Below, in pieces: positions 3,217 to 20,562 of a stretch of 29,199 nucleotides of DNA. The notes under the pieces were generated by a model that was given only the letters and a program-made list of their open reading frames with translations, had not been told where the DNA came from and did not search any database. Both the position numbers and the translations under genes were made by a program. How positions within the stretch are numbered: position 1 is the first letter of the stretch; every line of letters begins with the position of its first letter. This DNA is from a virus: the IMG/VR virus record IMGVR_UViG_3300032217_000353, positions 1-29,199 of that record; one strand, given 5' to 3'.

Positions 3217-4936
3217 CTTACACAGACTTTCGTTTCTTGACGATAGTTTACCAATATTCAAAGAGAATAAGGCAAAGGGTTATATGACTTACGGGTTAGA
3301 TAATCTTTATCCACAAGAACTTATACGCTTATATAATAGCAGTCCAAAACACAACGCCATTATTAACCAAAAAGCAGCATACATTGTAGGTGCAAACACC
3401 GATTTAAAAGGTGGTAACACAGAAGATATTGCAATTACTGAAGACTTTTTGGCAAATATTAACGCATACGAAGACTTTGAAAACCTTAAATCTAAATTAG
3501 CACAAGATTATGAGCTATTTGATGGGTTTGCATTAGAGGTTATTTGGAATAAAGCCAAGACCAAACCCGCAGAATACTATCATTTACCATTTCAAAATGT
3601 TAGATTAGGTAAAAATTGTGCATATTATAGTGAAGATTGGCAGAACCAACGTCAAGAAATATGTGAATATCCTTACTTTAACGCTAACACACGTGAGAAT
3701 AAACAAGTATTTTACTTTAAATTGTATCGTGCGGGACAAAAAGAATACCCTTTGCCATCGTATATCGGTGCATTAAGGTACATTGAGATTGATAGCGAGA
3801 TTCAAAACTGGCATTTCAATTCAATCAAAAACGGATTTTCAGCACAAACTTTAATTCAGTTCTTCAAAGGTATACCAACACCTGAAGAAATGAGAATCAC
3901 CGAACGAAGATTCAAACAACAAAAGACTGGCACACACAATGCTGGTGGAATGATTATTGGATACAATGAGCCAAGTGAACGTGCAGCAGAAATAACTAAC
4001 TTACAACCAAGTGATTTTGACAAACAATTTTTACAACTAAACGATACCGTACGTGATGAAATATTTGTTGGTCATCGTATATCTAACCCCGTTTTATTTG
4101 GTATTTCTACTGCGGGTGCTTTGGGACAAAGGAACGAACTTATTGAGGCATATGAATTGTTTCAACAAGCGTATATTGAACCAAGACAAAAGCAATTTGA
4201 TTCAGCGTTAAATAGCATTCTTAAATATGCCTTACCTTGTCAAGTTGTAACCATTAACAAACCACCAATTGGTCAAGACTATGTAGATTTGTACACAAAA
4301 GGTGTAATCACTCAAAATGAAGCACGTATTGAATTAGGTTTTGAACCTATTGAACCAGTACAACAAGCAATGTCAAAATCTTATACCGAAGACGATGTTG
4401 TAAATATGTTTATGGAATGTGGCGAAGACAAAGAAAACTTTGAAGATGTTAAAATGGAATTTGCTTCTGCAATAGAAACTGCAATTTTGCAGCTACTAAA
4501 CGCAAACGATGGTACTACAACGGGTGAACTTGCAAAGTATTTGAAGATAGACACACAAAAAGTAGTCGATACTATTGCACAGATGACTTCTAACGGACTT
4601 ATAGACGATGTTAAAGGTAAACTATCAGTTTCAAAATTGGGTACAACAGAACTTAAAAAAGTAAGTGACCAACAAATTGAGATACGTTATGAATATGCAC
4701 TTGACCCAGCATTTAGTGGTGAACGTAAAATCATAAAAACATCACGTGAATTTTGTAGGCAATTAGTAAGTGCAAATAGATTGTATTTACGTAGTGAAAT
4801 TGACACAATTAGCGCACGTGTAGGTAGGGATATTTGGACAGAACGTGGTGGATGGTACACAATACCCGATACAACTGTTCACATTCACCATTGCCGTCAC
4901 ATTTGGAATAGTAAATTAGTACGTAAAAAGATATGA
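3200..4936 (+). CDS. Portal protein with C-terminal winged-helix-like and MuF-like regions
   Basis: 578 residues. The first ~395 residues have portal character: an N-terminal part with a YGLDNLYPQEL motif near residue 31, and HRISNPVLFGISTAGALGQR near 293 followed by a long helical segment, as in HK97/SPP1-type portals. Residues ~428-485 look like a winged-helix fold (TTTGELAKYLKIDTQKVVDT). Residues ~493-578 resemble the C-terminus of Mu gpF-type head morphogenesis proteins: EFCRQL, VGRDIWTERGGW, and a final CRHIW. The portal forms the dodecameric DNA channel at the capsid vertex; the extra domains may act inside the head. It overlaps the next gene by 4 bases. The portal call is firm in context; the two extra domains are motif-level calls. 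Confidence 0.75.
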   Translation: MENKFNLHRLSFLDDSLPIFKENKAKGYMTYGLDNLYPQELIRLYNSSPKHNAIINQKAAYIVGANTDLKGGNTEDIAITEDFLANINAYEDFENLKSKLAQDYELFDGFALEVIWNKAKTKPAEYYHLPFQNVRLGKNCAYYSEDWQNQRQEICEYPYFNANTRENKQVFYFKLYRAGQKEYPLPSYIGALRYIEIDSEIQNWHFNSIKNGFSAQTLIQFFKGIPTPEEMRITERRFKQQKTGTHNAGGMIIGYNEPSERAAEITNLQPSDFDKQFLQLNDTVRDEIFVGHRISNPVLFGISTAGALGQRNELIEAYELFQQAYIEPRQKQFDSALNSILKYALPCQVVTINKPPIGQDYVDLYTKGVITQNEARIELGFEPIEPVQQAMSKSYTEDDVVNMFMECGEDKENFEDVKMEFASAIETAILQLLNANDGTTTGELAKYLKIDTQKVVDTIAQMTSNGLIDDVKGKLSVSKLGTTELKKVSDQQIEIRYEYALDPAFSGERKIIKTSREFCRQLVSANRLYLRSEIDTISARVGRDIWTERGGWYTIPDTTVHIHHCRHIWNSKLVRKKI

Positions 4937-8764: not shown

Positions 8765-8795
8765 TTTGTTATATTGAAAACTATTTGTATATTTG
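8765..8795 (+). promoter_or_regulatory. Bacteroidota-type promoter for the HTH gene
   Basis: TTTG at 8765-8768, a 19-base spacer and TATATTTG at 8788-8795 match the known Bacteroidota primary sigma consensus (TTTG-N19-21-TAnnTTTG). The expected transcription start, a few bases after the -7 box, falls on or next to the ATG at 8800, so the mRNA may be leaderless. TTTGTAAAA at 8752-8760, just upstream, recurs before other genes and may be an operator half-site. Confidence 0.85.
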
Positions 8796-10528: not shown

Positions 10529-10536
10529 TATATTTG
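10529..10536 (+). promoter_or_regulatory. Promoter -7 box TATATTTG
   Basis: TATATTTG matches the TAnnTTTG Bacteroidota -7 element. The -33 region is weak (TTTC at 10507-10510 with an 18-base spacer). Transcription would begin near 10541, giving a ~16-base A-rich leader before the ATG at 10557. Confidence 0.65.
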
Positions 10537-11533: not shown

Positions 11534-11541
11534 TATATTTG
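11534..11541 (+). promoter_or_regulatory. Promoter -7 box of the structured RNA
   Basis: TATATTTG fits the TAnnTTTG consensus. A -33 element is weak: TTAG at 11510-11513 with a 20-base spacer. The predicted transcription start (about 11545-11547) coincides with the first base of the 5' hairpin, which supports the promoter and the RNA boundary together. Confidence 0.7.
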
Positions 11542-11546
11542 TATTG

Positions 11547-11641
11547 TTAAGTGGAATGTTCAGGATTCCGATTACTTAAAAGATATTGGCTCAATTAAAA
11601 TAGTCGCACCTGAACTGCACTATTTTGGTTGGGCTTTTTTT
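11547..11641 (+). ncRNA. Putative structured RNA with two hairpins and a kissing-loop
   Basis: About 95 nt. Hairpin 1: TTAAGTGGAAT (11547-11557) pairs with ATTCC (11565-11569) and ACTTAA (11574-11579), with a 4-base bulge at 11570-11573 and loop GTTCAGG (11558-11564). Hairpin 2: 11588-11607 pairs with 11617-11635 (19 bp including G-U pairs, one bulged C at 11605); loop 11608-11616 contains CCTGAAC (11609-11615), the exact complement of the first loop. Seven T residues follow. Promoter, two stems, loop-loop complementarity and terminator together argue for a real RNA. It may be a trans-acting small RNA, or a leader regulating the 11646 gene. A 7-codon frame (11556-11579) lies inside hairpin 1. 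Confidence 0.72.
11588..11641 (+). terminator. Long-stem intrinsic terminator just before the nuclease-like gene
   Basis: A 19-bp stem (outer arm GGCTCAATT with GGTTGGGCT, inner arm AAAATAGT with ACTATTTT, then GC with GC) closes a 9-base loop and is followed by T at 11635-11641. The ATG of the next gene is at 11646, so that gene can only be transcribed by read-through, which suggests attenuation. Confidence 0.8.
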
Positions 11642-11645
11642 ATTT

Positions 11646-12131
11646 ATGAAATTTTTAGAAAAAGATTTAGAAACAATCATCTATGAATCTGGAAGGGATT
11701 TATTAGACGAAAGAGGTTTAGCCATTGAAGGTAAACTTTTAAGACAAGTGAAAATTGGTAATTATGGAATTGCTGATTTAATTTATTATTCACGTCCGTA
11801 TTACAAGGGTAAAAAATTATTCTTTCCTGGACAAGTAACTATTATTGAATTAAAGAAAGAAAAGATTGGTATTGCATCATTTTTACAATCAATTCAATAT
11901 GTAAAAGGAGTAATTACTTATTTAGAATCTAAAAATGTATCACATTTATTTGATATAAATATTAAATTAATTGGTAAAGAATTAGATACACAAGGTAGTT
12001 TTTGTTTTATTACTGATTTATTAAATGTGCAAGGGTGTGGAACAATTGAATTTTATACTTATGATTTTAAAATTGATGGTATAAATTTTAATCTTGAAAA
12101 TGGTTATGATTTAACAAATAGAGGATTTTAA
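11646..12131 (+). CDS. PD-(D/E)XK-like nuclease candidate
   Basis: 161 residues from ATG 11646; the longer frame from TTG 11625 would start inside the terminator and is rejected. The core pattern is a nuclease fold signature: GNYGIADLIYY (conserved Asp near 45), then VTIIELKKEKIG (Glu-x-Lys near 67-69), then a helix FLQSIQYVKGV. This is the layout of restriction-endonuclease-like proteins of the NucS/Endonuclease VII-like kind, often involved in recombination or DNA repair. Codon choice here is more A/T-ending (TTA, TTT, ATT) than in the genes around 9-11 kb, hinting at separate acquisition. The gene is followed 2 bases later by the replisome organizer. Confidence 0.6.
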   Translation: MKFLEKDLETIIYESGRDLLDERGLAIEGKLLRQVKIGNYGIADLIYYSRPYYKGKKLFFPGQVTIIELKKEKIGIASFLQSIQYVKGVITYLESKNVSHLFDINIKLIGKELDTQGSFCFITDLLNVQGCGTIEFYTYDFKIDGINFNLENGYDLTNRGF

Positions 12132-12133
12132 TT

Positions 12134-12823
12134 ATGGCAATATTTAGAAAAATTCATACATCATTTTGGAGTGATACATTTATTCAAGACCTGGATAATG
12201 AACATAGATTATTTTATTTATACCTTTTGACAAATGAACGCACTAAACAATGTGGCATCTACGAAATCAGTAAAAAACAAATGTCTTTTGATTTAGGATA
12301 CAGTATAGATAGAGTATCTAAACTTATTAAATACTTTATAAAAATAGGTAAAATTCTATATTCCGAAGATACAAAAGAGATTGCCTTAAAAAATTGGAAC
12401 AAATATAATGGTTCTTCAAGTCCAAAAGTTGTAAGTTGCATTCAGTCAGAACTTAAACAAATAAAAGATAGAGTATTGATAGAGTATGTAAATGGTATGT
12501 ATACTGCATCACAAGAAGAACAAGAACAAGAAGAAGAACAAGAAAAAGAAGTATTTGATATTAGTGTATTTGAAGAATTTTGGAATTTGTATGAAAAGAA
12601 ATTAAACAAAGAAGAAAGTTTAAGTGCATTTAAAAAAATAAAATCAAGTGAATATGATTTAATTAAATCACATATTCCTATTTTTGTCAAGCAATTTAAA
12701 GACAAACAATTTCAACCATACTTTTCAACATACTTAAATAAAAAAAGATGGCAAGATGAAGTTCAAATACAAACACAAGTTATAACAAACAAACCTAAAT
12801 TTGGAACATTAGAAGATGAATAG
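12134..12823 (+). CDS. Replisome organizer / helicase loader-like protein (DnaD-like)
   Basis: 229 residues in two parts. The N-terminal ~105 residues form a winged-helix-like domain (FWSDTFIQDLDNEHRLFYLY, then QMSFDLGYSIDRVSKLIKYF). A Glu/Gln-rich linker lies around residues 118-136. The C-terminal part has the pattern of phage replication protein C-termini: FEEFWNLYEKKLNKEES, then a helix and FQPYFSTYLNKKRWQDE. It probably binds the replication origin and recruits the DnaB-type helicase encoded next, which it overlaps by 8 bases. The codon usage is A/T-rich like the preceding gene. Confidence 0.75.
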   Translation: MAIFRKIHTSFWSDTFIQDLDNEHRLFYLYLLTNERTKQCGIYEISKKQMSFDLGYSIDRVSKLIKYFIKIGKILYSEDTKEIALKNWNKYNGSSSPKVVSCIQSELKQIKDRVLIEYVNGMYTASQEEQEQEEEQEKEVFDISVFEEFWNLYEKKLNKEESLSAFKKIKSSEYDLIKSHIPIFVKQFKDKQFQPYFSTYLNKKRWQDEVQIQTQVITNKPKFGTLEDE

Positions 12824-14042
12824 AGAACATTATATTATCGGAACGTTTTTAATGGACAAAAAAACACACGTATTTTTACCTAAAATTAACCACAAATGGT
12901 TTAAAGGGTGGAATGCAGAAATAATTGCCTTTATGCAGTTATGTTATTTAAATAATCAACCCATTGACTTACTTAATTTATCACGCCAATTTAAAGGCAA
13001 GGCATTTGAGCTATCACAATTTACCAATTCTTATGCACATAGCACCGATTTAAAGCATTATCTATTTGAATTGGATATAATGTACAAGAAAAACAAGTTA
13101 GTTCAACAGATAGCAAATTTAGACGTACACAAAGAATTAGATTTGATACTAAAAGATTTGAGTTTAATTACAATCGAAGCACAAATAACAATTGACAAAG
13201 AGCCATTACCAATGTCAAAAGTAACTGGTAAGGTAATTGATGACCTTGAAGAAAAAATGAAACGTGGAACAAAGTTAATGGGCTTAACAACGGGTTGGCA
13301 AATGTTAGACAAGTATATTGGTGGTTGGAATAAAGGTAATTTAATTATCATTGCTGGTAGACCAGGTTCAGGTAAAACTGCAATAGCATTGTCGTTAACA
13401 ATTAACGCATCAAACGTGGCAAAGGTTTTATTTATGTCACTTGAAATGAGCAGCGAAGAATTGGCAAAGCGTTATATTAGTTACTTTGCAAATATTGAAA
13501 ACTATAAAATTCGTAGTGGCAATTTAAAAGTAAACGAACACGAACACATTGCAAATAGCTTATACCAACTGACTACTGATTTCTATGTAGATGACGATGC
13601 AAAGAGTAGCATAAACGATATACGTGCAAAAGCACAACTACACAAAGCAAAACACGGGTTAAACATTTTAATCATAGATTATTTGCAATTAGTAAAAGGA
13701 ACAAAGGCAAATCGTGAACAAGAAATAGCAGAAATTTCACGCAACTTAAAAATCATTGCAAAAGAATTAGATATCACAGTTATTTGTTTGGCGCAGTTAA
13801 ATAGAAATAGCGAACAACGTGCTGACAAAAGACCTATGCTTTCCGACTTGCGTGAAAGTGGTTCAATAGAACAAGATGCCGATGTTGTTATGTTCCCGTT
13901 TAGACCACAATACTATGAGCAAGAACAAATGGATATTGAGAGTGATGCTGAATTAATTATCTCAAAAAATAGGCACGGGAGTACAGTCACAATACCAGTT
14001 ACATTTGAAGGCAAGTACACAAAATATACGGAAAGAATATGA
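12816..14042 (+). CDS. dnaB: DnaB-type replicative DNA helicase
   Basis: 408 residues. RecA-fold motifs are complete: Walker A GRPGSGKT (181-188), MSLEMS with Glu210, Walker B ILIIDYLQL (284-292), the CLAQLNRNSEQR motif (324-334) and SDLRESGSIEQDADVV (343-358) with the arginine finger region. The N-terminal ~130 residues are a short version of the DnaB N-terminal domain, so the protein is shorter than bacterial DnaB (about 450-500). It unwinds DNA at the phage fork as a hexamer. It overlaps the loader-like gene by 8 bases and the DnaA-like gene by 4. Confidence 0.93.
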   Translation: MNREHYIIGTFLMDKKTHVFLPKINHKWFKGWNAEIIAFMQLCYLNNQPIDLLNLSRQFKGKAFELSQFTNSYAHSTDLKHYLFELDIMYKKNKLVQQIANLDVHKELDLILKDLSLITIEAQITIDKEPLPMSKVTGKVIDDLEEKMKRGTKLMGLTTGWQMLDKYIGGWNKGNLIIIAGRPGSGKTAIALSLTINASNVAKVLFMSLEMSSEELAKRYISYFANIENYKIRSGNLKVNEHEHIANSLYQLTTDFYVDDDAKSSINDIRAKAQLHKAKHGLNILIIDYLQLVKGTKANREQEIAEISRNLKIIAKELDITVICLAQLNRNSEQRADKRPMLSDLRESGSIEQDADVVMFPFRPQYYEQEQMDIESDAELIISKNRHGSTVTIPVTFEGKYTKYTERI

Positions 14043-20554: not shown

Positions 20555-20562
20555 TATATTTG
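20555..20562 (+). promoter_or_regulatory. Promoter -7 box TATATTTG before the control region
   Basis: The box begins at the base after the frameshift extension stop. A -33-like TTG lies at 20534-20536 with an 18-base spacer. The transcript would start near 20567 and meet an intrinsic terminator after about 55 nt, so it is either a tiny RNA or an attenuated leader for the tail operon. Confidence 0.65.

Follow-up and report, generated by a model that had tools for sequence, protein, structure and literature searches.

The window, i.e. the whole stretch of 29,199 nucleotides that was analysed (IMG/VR virus record IMGVR_UViG_3300032217_000353, positions 1 to 29,199), carries on its plus strand a promoter element, two hairpins and a U-tract, located immediately before three genes that encode a nuclease-like protein, a DnaD-like replication initiation protein and a DnaB-like replicative helicase (Table 1). 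The promoter, both hairpins, their loops and the seven T residues had been described in a sequence-only reading of this DNA, and a sequence check found all of them in place. Transcription had also been predicted to start at the foot of hairpin 1; since the TAnnTTTG element of Flavobacterium psychrophilum spans -12 to -5 (PMC9723704), the predicted start falls one base ahead of the first paired base. The virus presumably infects a Bacteroidota host, because both the promoter type and the relatives point there. Further TATATTTG promoters are present in intergenic gaps of the window (10529-10536, 8788-8795 and 20555-20562), with no kissing leader behind them.

Table 1. Features of the leader element and of the genes behind it in the window.
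Feature	Position	Strand	Evidence or remark
Bacteroidota -7 promoter element TATATTTG (TAnnTTTG)	11534..11541	+	Sequence; same place in nearly all relatives
Predicted transcription start	11546	+	From promoter geometry in PMC9723704
Hairpin 1	11547..11579	+	MFE fold; outer stem, internal loop, inner stem, loop
Hairpin 1 outer stem TTAAGT/ACTTAA	11547-11552/11574-11579	+	
Hairpin 1 inner stem GGAAT/ATTCC	11553-11557/11565-11569	+	
Kissing loop 1 GTTCAGG (RNA GUUCAGG)	11558..11564	+	Watson-Crick with loop 2 in relatives
Hairpin 2, long intrinsic-terminator stem	11588..11635	+	MFE fold; two-sided changes
Kissing loop 2 CCTGAAC (RNA CCUGAAC)	11609..11615	+	Exact reverse complement of loop 1; covaries
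Terminator U-tract, seven T	11635..11641	+	Sequence; conserved
PD-(D/E)XK-type nuclease-like protein, first gene behind the leader	11646..12131	+	Predicted fold NucS/EndoMS-like
DnaD-like replication initiation protein	12134..12823	+	PHROG 6251/1701
DnaB-like replicative helicase	12816..14042	+	PHROG 19; tblastn to phage helicases

No open reading frame explains the stretch occupied by the element, in agreement with the earlier claim that no protein gene accounts for it, and the conserved start of the next gene is the ATG at 11646. No Pfam or PHROG family was found for the nuclease-like product of this gene, which shares an invariant AD/ELK motif with its relatives and whose structural model (pLDDT 85) gave a VIA Z of 10.2 to 2vld over 105 residues. 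This undescribed protein family has 80 or more relatives in viral contigs, always near replication genes. The first gene behind the RNA varies among relatives, being nuclease-like, DnaD-like, HTH, GIY-YIG-like or other, usually with a DnaB-like helicase gene next. A leader tied only to the nuclease-like gene was ruled out, the RNA being found also before DnaD-like, HTH, helicase-type, portal and yopX genes. In contig L174 promoter and RNA match those of the window exactly, against 76-87% identity in the nearby genes and unrelated adjoining ORFs; the RNA is therefore considered a unit of its own.

The leader region folds with a minimum free energy of -31.4 kcal/mol (z = -4.7), and none of 200 shuffles folded equally well. 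Each of the two 7-nt words makes up an entire loop, and a complementary loop pair with this spacing occurs once in the window and in 0 of 100 shuffles. In the window clade the loop of hairpin 1 often starts with AUG followed by an immediate stop (UAG, UGA or UAA; 6 of 9 loop types), and in the window the AUG in 11556-11561 opens a 7-codon ORF (MFRIPIT); by eye this was not seen outside the window clade, and it was taken as incidental.

Members of the RNA family were collected among relatives of the downstream gene from viral contigs and with a DNA pattern that leaves the loops free. A sequence alignment of 23 distinct members, made with MAFFT and not fitted to structure, has revealed that all 161 of 161 cells of the loop-loop helix are Watson-Crick pairs with no G-U, that 5 of the 7 pairs change on both sides, and that the signal is lost when the partners are slid or shuffled. 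A clean compensatory change was found between GTCGCAT/ATGCGAC in L010 and GTCGGAT/ATCCGAC in L013. Every genuine full-length pattern member retains the full 7-nt loop complement, which is missing from the chance matches of the same pattern in coding DNA and from all 8 matches in cellular genome contigs, likewise attributed to chance; these chance matches act as an internal control. The inner stem of hairpin 1 is paired in 99% of cells among the 23 sequences and is nearly invariant in the window clade, where the loops vary freely; the outer stem is TTAAG/CTTAA in the window and TTAAC/GTTAA in most relatives. Hairpin 2 shows two-sided changes at 10 of its 19 pairs, with 89% of cells paired in the same 23 sequences, and its approximately 70 G-U cells fit an RNA of the plus strand rather than a DNA element. 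The proposal that the two loops pair was borne out, the complementarity being exact, beyond chance and kept by covariation, and the pairing is retained in relatives that keep the genes. At the level of sequence, a real loop-loop interaction in this RNA is strongly supported, as is the earlier description of a putative promoter-driven structured RNA ending in an intrinsic terminator.

The architecture was also sought in upstream regions that were new to the analysis. A deeper protein-alignment search gave 80 loci, with 49 new and distinct upstream regions of the downstream gene family, and a strict descriptor set in advance (a terminator hairpin plus a complement of its loop of at least 7 nt located upstream) was applied to them. 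The descriptor fitted 30 of the 49 regions vs 0.6% of shuffles and, when TAnnTTTG was included, 25 of 49 vs 0.0% of shuffles. Several of the 19 non-fitting regions contain, by eye, a shorter or weaker-framed version, such as GTGGAGG/CCTCCAC in L251, CTCTCCAC/GTGGAGAG in L270 and GTAGGAGC/GCTCCTAC in L288; no version was seen by eye in the upstream regions of L280, L281 and L290. The descriptor undercounts because weak first hairpins are missed, that of phage phi19:3 having only about 3 bp. A relaxed complement scan was discarded, as it often detects the terminator stem itself.

Spacing is nearly constant over 43 distinct word pairs, a few of which may be chance: the median distance is 22 nt from promoter to first word (IQR 18-24), 53 nt from word to word (30 of 43 between 46 and 56) and 18 nt from second word to U-tract (IQR 17-21). 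Nearly all members of the window clade have their start codon 0-7 nt past the U-tract; elsewhere this distance is about 18-50 nt. A same-strand ORF follows within 45 nt in 11 of 12 elements (phage JQ included, one distance being taken from the annotation) vs 11 of 35 other intergenic terminators, a small control (p = 3.5e-4). As there is no space for another promoter between the U-tract and the ATG, the operon must be reached through the leader terminator. The GC skew, inspected for signs of an origin, does not turn in the vicinity of the RNA.

Elements of this architecture, unrelated in sequence, recur in phages cultured on Cellulophaga, Olleya, Tenacibaculum, Flavobacterium and Riemerella. 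Elements in the replication module were found in Cellulophaga phages phi19:3, phi13:2 and Nekkels_1, Olleya phage Harreka_1, Tenacibaculum phage JQ (whose element has TATATTAG) and Flavobacterium phage elemoA. Hairpin 1 is not conserved in sequence beyond the window clade; a blastn search with one member against cultured phages gave no match, and the relatives there were located by position. In ten flavophage genomes that were scanned, 9 promoter-linked matches were found vs 0.67 expected, and the descriptor with promoter, run over approximately 1.5 Mb of further viral loci, matched almost only family members. Most elements precede replication genes; others, among the 9 matches of the scan, stand before the portal gene (second copy in Nekkels_1), before yopX (second copy in phi19:3) and before a gene adjoining the antirepressor gene (Riemerella phage RAP44). 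The scan also found a copy in Flavobacterium phage 11b, and contig L023 has two copies 2 kb apart. Loops are never shared within a genome in the two phages and the contig with two copies, so that two leaders in one genome would not cross-pair. Bacteroides phage BF1-TP2 has the gene, with no convincing element. In 0.3 Mb of two host genomes 3 promoter-linked matches were found vs 1.0 expected, none of them compact; a covariance model gave no match in 395 Bacteroidota genomes, a set that held no genome with a known match and therefore shows little. Structure, loop-loop covariation, constant spacing, position before operons and spread over several phage families are documented by sequence comparison.

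The functions initially proposed were a trans-acting small RNA, a decoy and a leader, and among these the leader is favoured by the location at operon heads, the proximity to the start codon and the recurrence before unrelated operons. We lean towards the view that the element is the 5' leader of a phage replication operon and would act in cis as a conditional transcription terminator (attenuator). Host RNA polymerase would start at 11546 from TATATTTG, and hairpin 1 would fold and expose its loop. The terminator hairpin would be made about 45 nt later, and its loop, 15-21 nt ahead of the U-tract, would leave the polymerase at the U-tract; only then could loop 1 pair with loop 2. The 7-bp loop-loop helix would bias, by helping or hindering, the completion of the terminator in time. 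Terminated transcripts would yield an RNA of about 95 nt protected at both ends, while read-through transcripts would allow expression of the nuclease-like, DnaD-like and DnaB-like genes; a protein, a competing RNA or the replication state might be the signal for read-through. The loops would serve as a private address, for which any complementary pair suffices.

Timing counts towards this preference for a conditional terminator. Since loop 2 ends about 18 nt before the U-tract and RNA polymerase covers roughly 14 nt of RNA, the loop-loop helix would first be able to form at the U-tract, which is the moment of the termination decision; judging from this timing, the helix probably sets that decision. 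We infer that the element is transcribed and terminated in vivo and that read-through is regulated. Controlled read-through, or a short RNA that is itself the end product, would explain why a promoter feeds only a terminator before replication genes; copies within a genome differ in their loops, which is consistent with private pairing in cis and speaks against cross-talk. The fold of the window leader showed no alternative antiterminator pairing, and the kiss alone would not exclude the terminator by base pairing, because loop 2 lies outside the terminator stem. A rough length estimate (about 105 A for 38 bp stacked coaxially vs about 55 A for the 8-nt linker) suggests that full stems together with the kiss would be strained, a strain that an opened outer stem of hairpin 1 or a bent complex would relieve. 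Given the linker lengths, a kiss alongside complete stems may or may not form, and the locking of both hairpins suggested in the sequence-only reading is at most a possibility.

An autonomous small RNA is considered unlikely. The terminated product of about 95 nt, locked by the kiss and protected at its ends, would target, in trans, RNAs or proteins of the host or the phage, and the downstream genes would be expressed by leakage. The strong promoter, the 5' end at the first base pair and the intrinsic terminator are in its favour, and an independent trans-acting RNA would likewise account for the near-identical RNA that L174 carries amid unrelated neighbours; in the window clade, moreover, the inner stem GGAAT/ATTCC is near-invariant while the loops vary, as if a protein read the stem. 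However, no unpaired seed is conserved, the variable part being paired with itself, a close same-strand gene is always found behind the element, copies within one genome share architecture and not sequence, and the lack of conservation of hairpin 1 outside the window clade also speaks against a molecule of this kind.

A plain terminator or insulator, which would block upstream transcription with no switch and in which the kiss would only stabilise the RNA or speed terminator folding, appears decidedly improbable, even though hairpin 2 is a strong terminator with a U-tract of 5-8 nt. The 7-bp helices between 7-nt loops of ColE1 RNAI and RNAII coexist with intact stems, which was counted for this reading. 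In ColE1 the 7-nt loops pair along all 7 bases, as proposed here; the kiss there is intermolecular, between antisense transcripts, whereas the element has both loops in one transcript. An insulator would not need a promoter of its own 100 nt upstream and would cut the sole route into the operon, and other strong terminators in the same genomes are devoid of the partner hairpin.

Self-regulation in trans as in plasmid copy control, by which terminated leaders would pair with nascent leaders on other genome copies and alter termination, so that the replication genes would be tuned to genome number, is very improbable. The location before replication genes and the hypervariable complementary loops recall plasmid copy-control RNAs, and the interior loop of hairpin 1 is like that of the pT181 sensing hairpin (PMC4878617). 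Intramolecular pairing should nevertheless outcompete intermolecular pairing, portal and yopX genes also have leaders, and a search confined to TAnnTTTG found none on the minus strand between 11456 and 12406; an antisense attenuator of the pT181 type was rejected on this last ground. There is hardly any likelihood of a multimerising RNA in the manner of phi29 pRNA, with intermolecular loop pairing leading to dimers or rings in a structural role, because the two complementary loops per molecule, their rapid compensatory change and the apparent strain that the short linker imposes on a coaxial intramolecular kiss with complete stems are opposed by the absence of an Rfam pRNA match, by the operon-head location with several non-identical copies per genome and by the near-constant word spacing expected for pairing within one RNA.

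Searches against Rfam 15, which includes phi29 pRNA (RF00044), C4 (RF01695), 6S-flavo (RF01685) and Flavo-1 (RF01705), gave no match at gathering score in the window and only one tRNA in 16 related loci, and at E values up to 10 only chance-level matches far below the gathering scores were found; the element had not been recognised as a known RNA class in the sequence-only reading either. It consists of a promoter, a leader and an intrinsic terminator directly before a gene, which is the arrangement of attenuator leaders. In the pT181 attenuator, a leader hairpin with an interior loop is followed by a terminator, and loop contacts set the specificity, with orthogonal loop pairs (PMC4878617). 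The likeness includes the interior-loop hairpin, the terminator before a replication gene and the loop-loop specificity (PMC4878617); the pT181 system differs in that it uses a separate antisense RNA and an antiterminator that sequesters the terminator stem, whereas the element carries the partner loop on its own terminator hairpin. By analogy, the element would work most like plasmid attenuators such as pT181. Phi29 pRNA resembles it in having two mutually complementary loops that change in step between phages, but those loops pair between molecules and the RNA is part of a packaging motor, whereas here one loop is carried by a terminator and the copies stand at operon heads. The C4 antisense RNA of P1, P7 and relatives is likewise made ahead of the gene that it controls, as part of one transcript with it, and contains complementary words. 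The C4 words, however, pair around the downstream ribosome-binding region, whereas both words of the element are in the leader, and no Rfam match to the C4 family (RF01695, listed in PMC2864571) was obtained. Metabolite riboswitches (e.g. purine) share the leader RNA before a gene, the loop-loop tertiary contact and the terminator, but in the element whole loops pair by at least 7 Watson-Crick pairs and vary freely; a riboswitch was discarded because there is no conserved ligand-binding core and the architecture is kept without shared sequence across phage families. A type III toxin-antitoxin system (ToxN/TenpN/CptN-like) was also discarded, the RNA being without repeats and the downstream gene varying (DnaD-like, HTH, helicase and portal among others).

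A literature search restricted to open-licence papers yielded no description of such an element, and the RNA family is regarded as undescribed and as being of the attenuator-leader kind. Pairing letters that covary and differ from virus to virus point to a widespread RNA control element in Bacteroidota viruses. The wider proposal, plausible if on balance a shade doubtful, is that self-kissing attenuators form a new and widespread class of RNA switches in Bacteroidota phages, in which an upstream hairpin would capture the terminator loop at the polymerase exit and gate replication, structural and other operons, freely evolving loop pairs keeping the switches apart. Little is understood of how gene expression is timed in these phages, and the same open-licence papers yielded no description of a comparable regulatory RNA for them; an RNA element that covaries, heads replication operons and occurs in cultured phages of at least 5 host genera offers a concrete handle on that timing. 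If the loop-loop helix decides termination, it would be a simple natural gate with interchangeable addresses, of interest to RNA engineers. With the descriptor, annotators can also place the promoter, the leader and the beginning of an operon in flavophages that otherwise have no annotation.

Some members present additional structures. In L237-L297, upstream of the gene start, and in L185 (Nekkels_1, about 3980-3999), a small second hairpin overlaps the start codon of the nuclease-like gene; these hairpins (ATAC-GGAAN-GTAT(G), ATAAC-GGAAT-GTTAT(G) and AATTC-GGAAT-GAATT) have a constant GGAA loop and a changing stem, resemble a translational operator and are absent in the window clade. An extra side hairpin on the terminator arm of L185 has a loop, GTTAGAC, that complements an upstream single-stranded GTCTAAC (3874-3880 and about 3922-3928), which would give a second tertiary helix. 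The RAP44 copy, next to the antirepressor gene (L198, 13711-13863), is a variant in which the complement extends to 14 nt (GTTAATCCAAGTGC/GCACTTGGATTAAC) and the terminator hairpin is larger and branched. In the second Nekkels_1 leader (L194, 13540-13680, before the portal gene), the 5' arm of hairpin 1, GTCCACTAC, could pair instead with the linker GTAGTGGAC, and a T-run stands directly behind hairpin 1 as well, so that by eye mutually exclusive structures appear possible.
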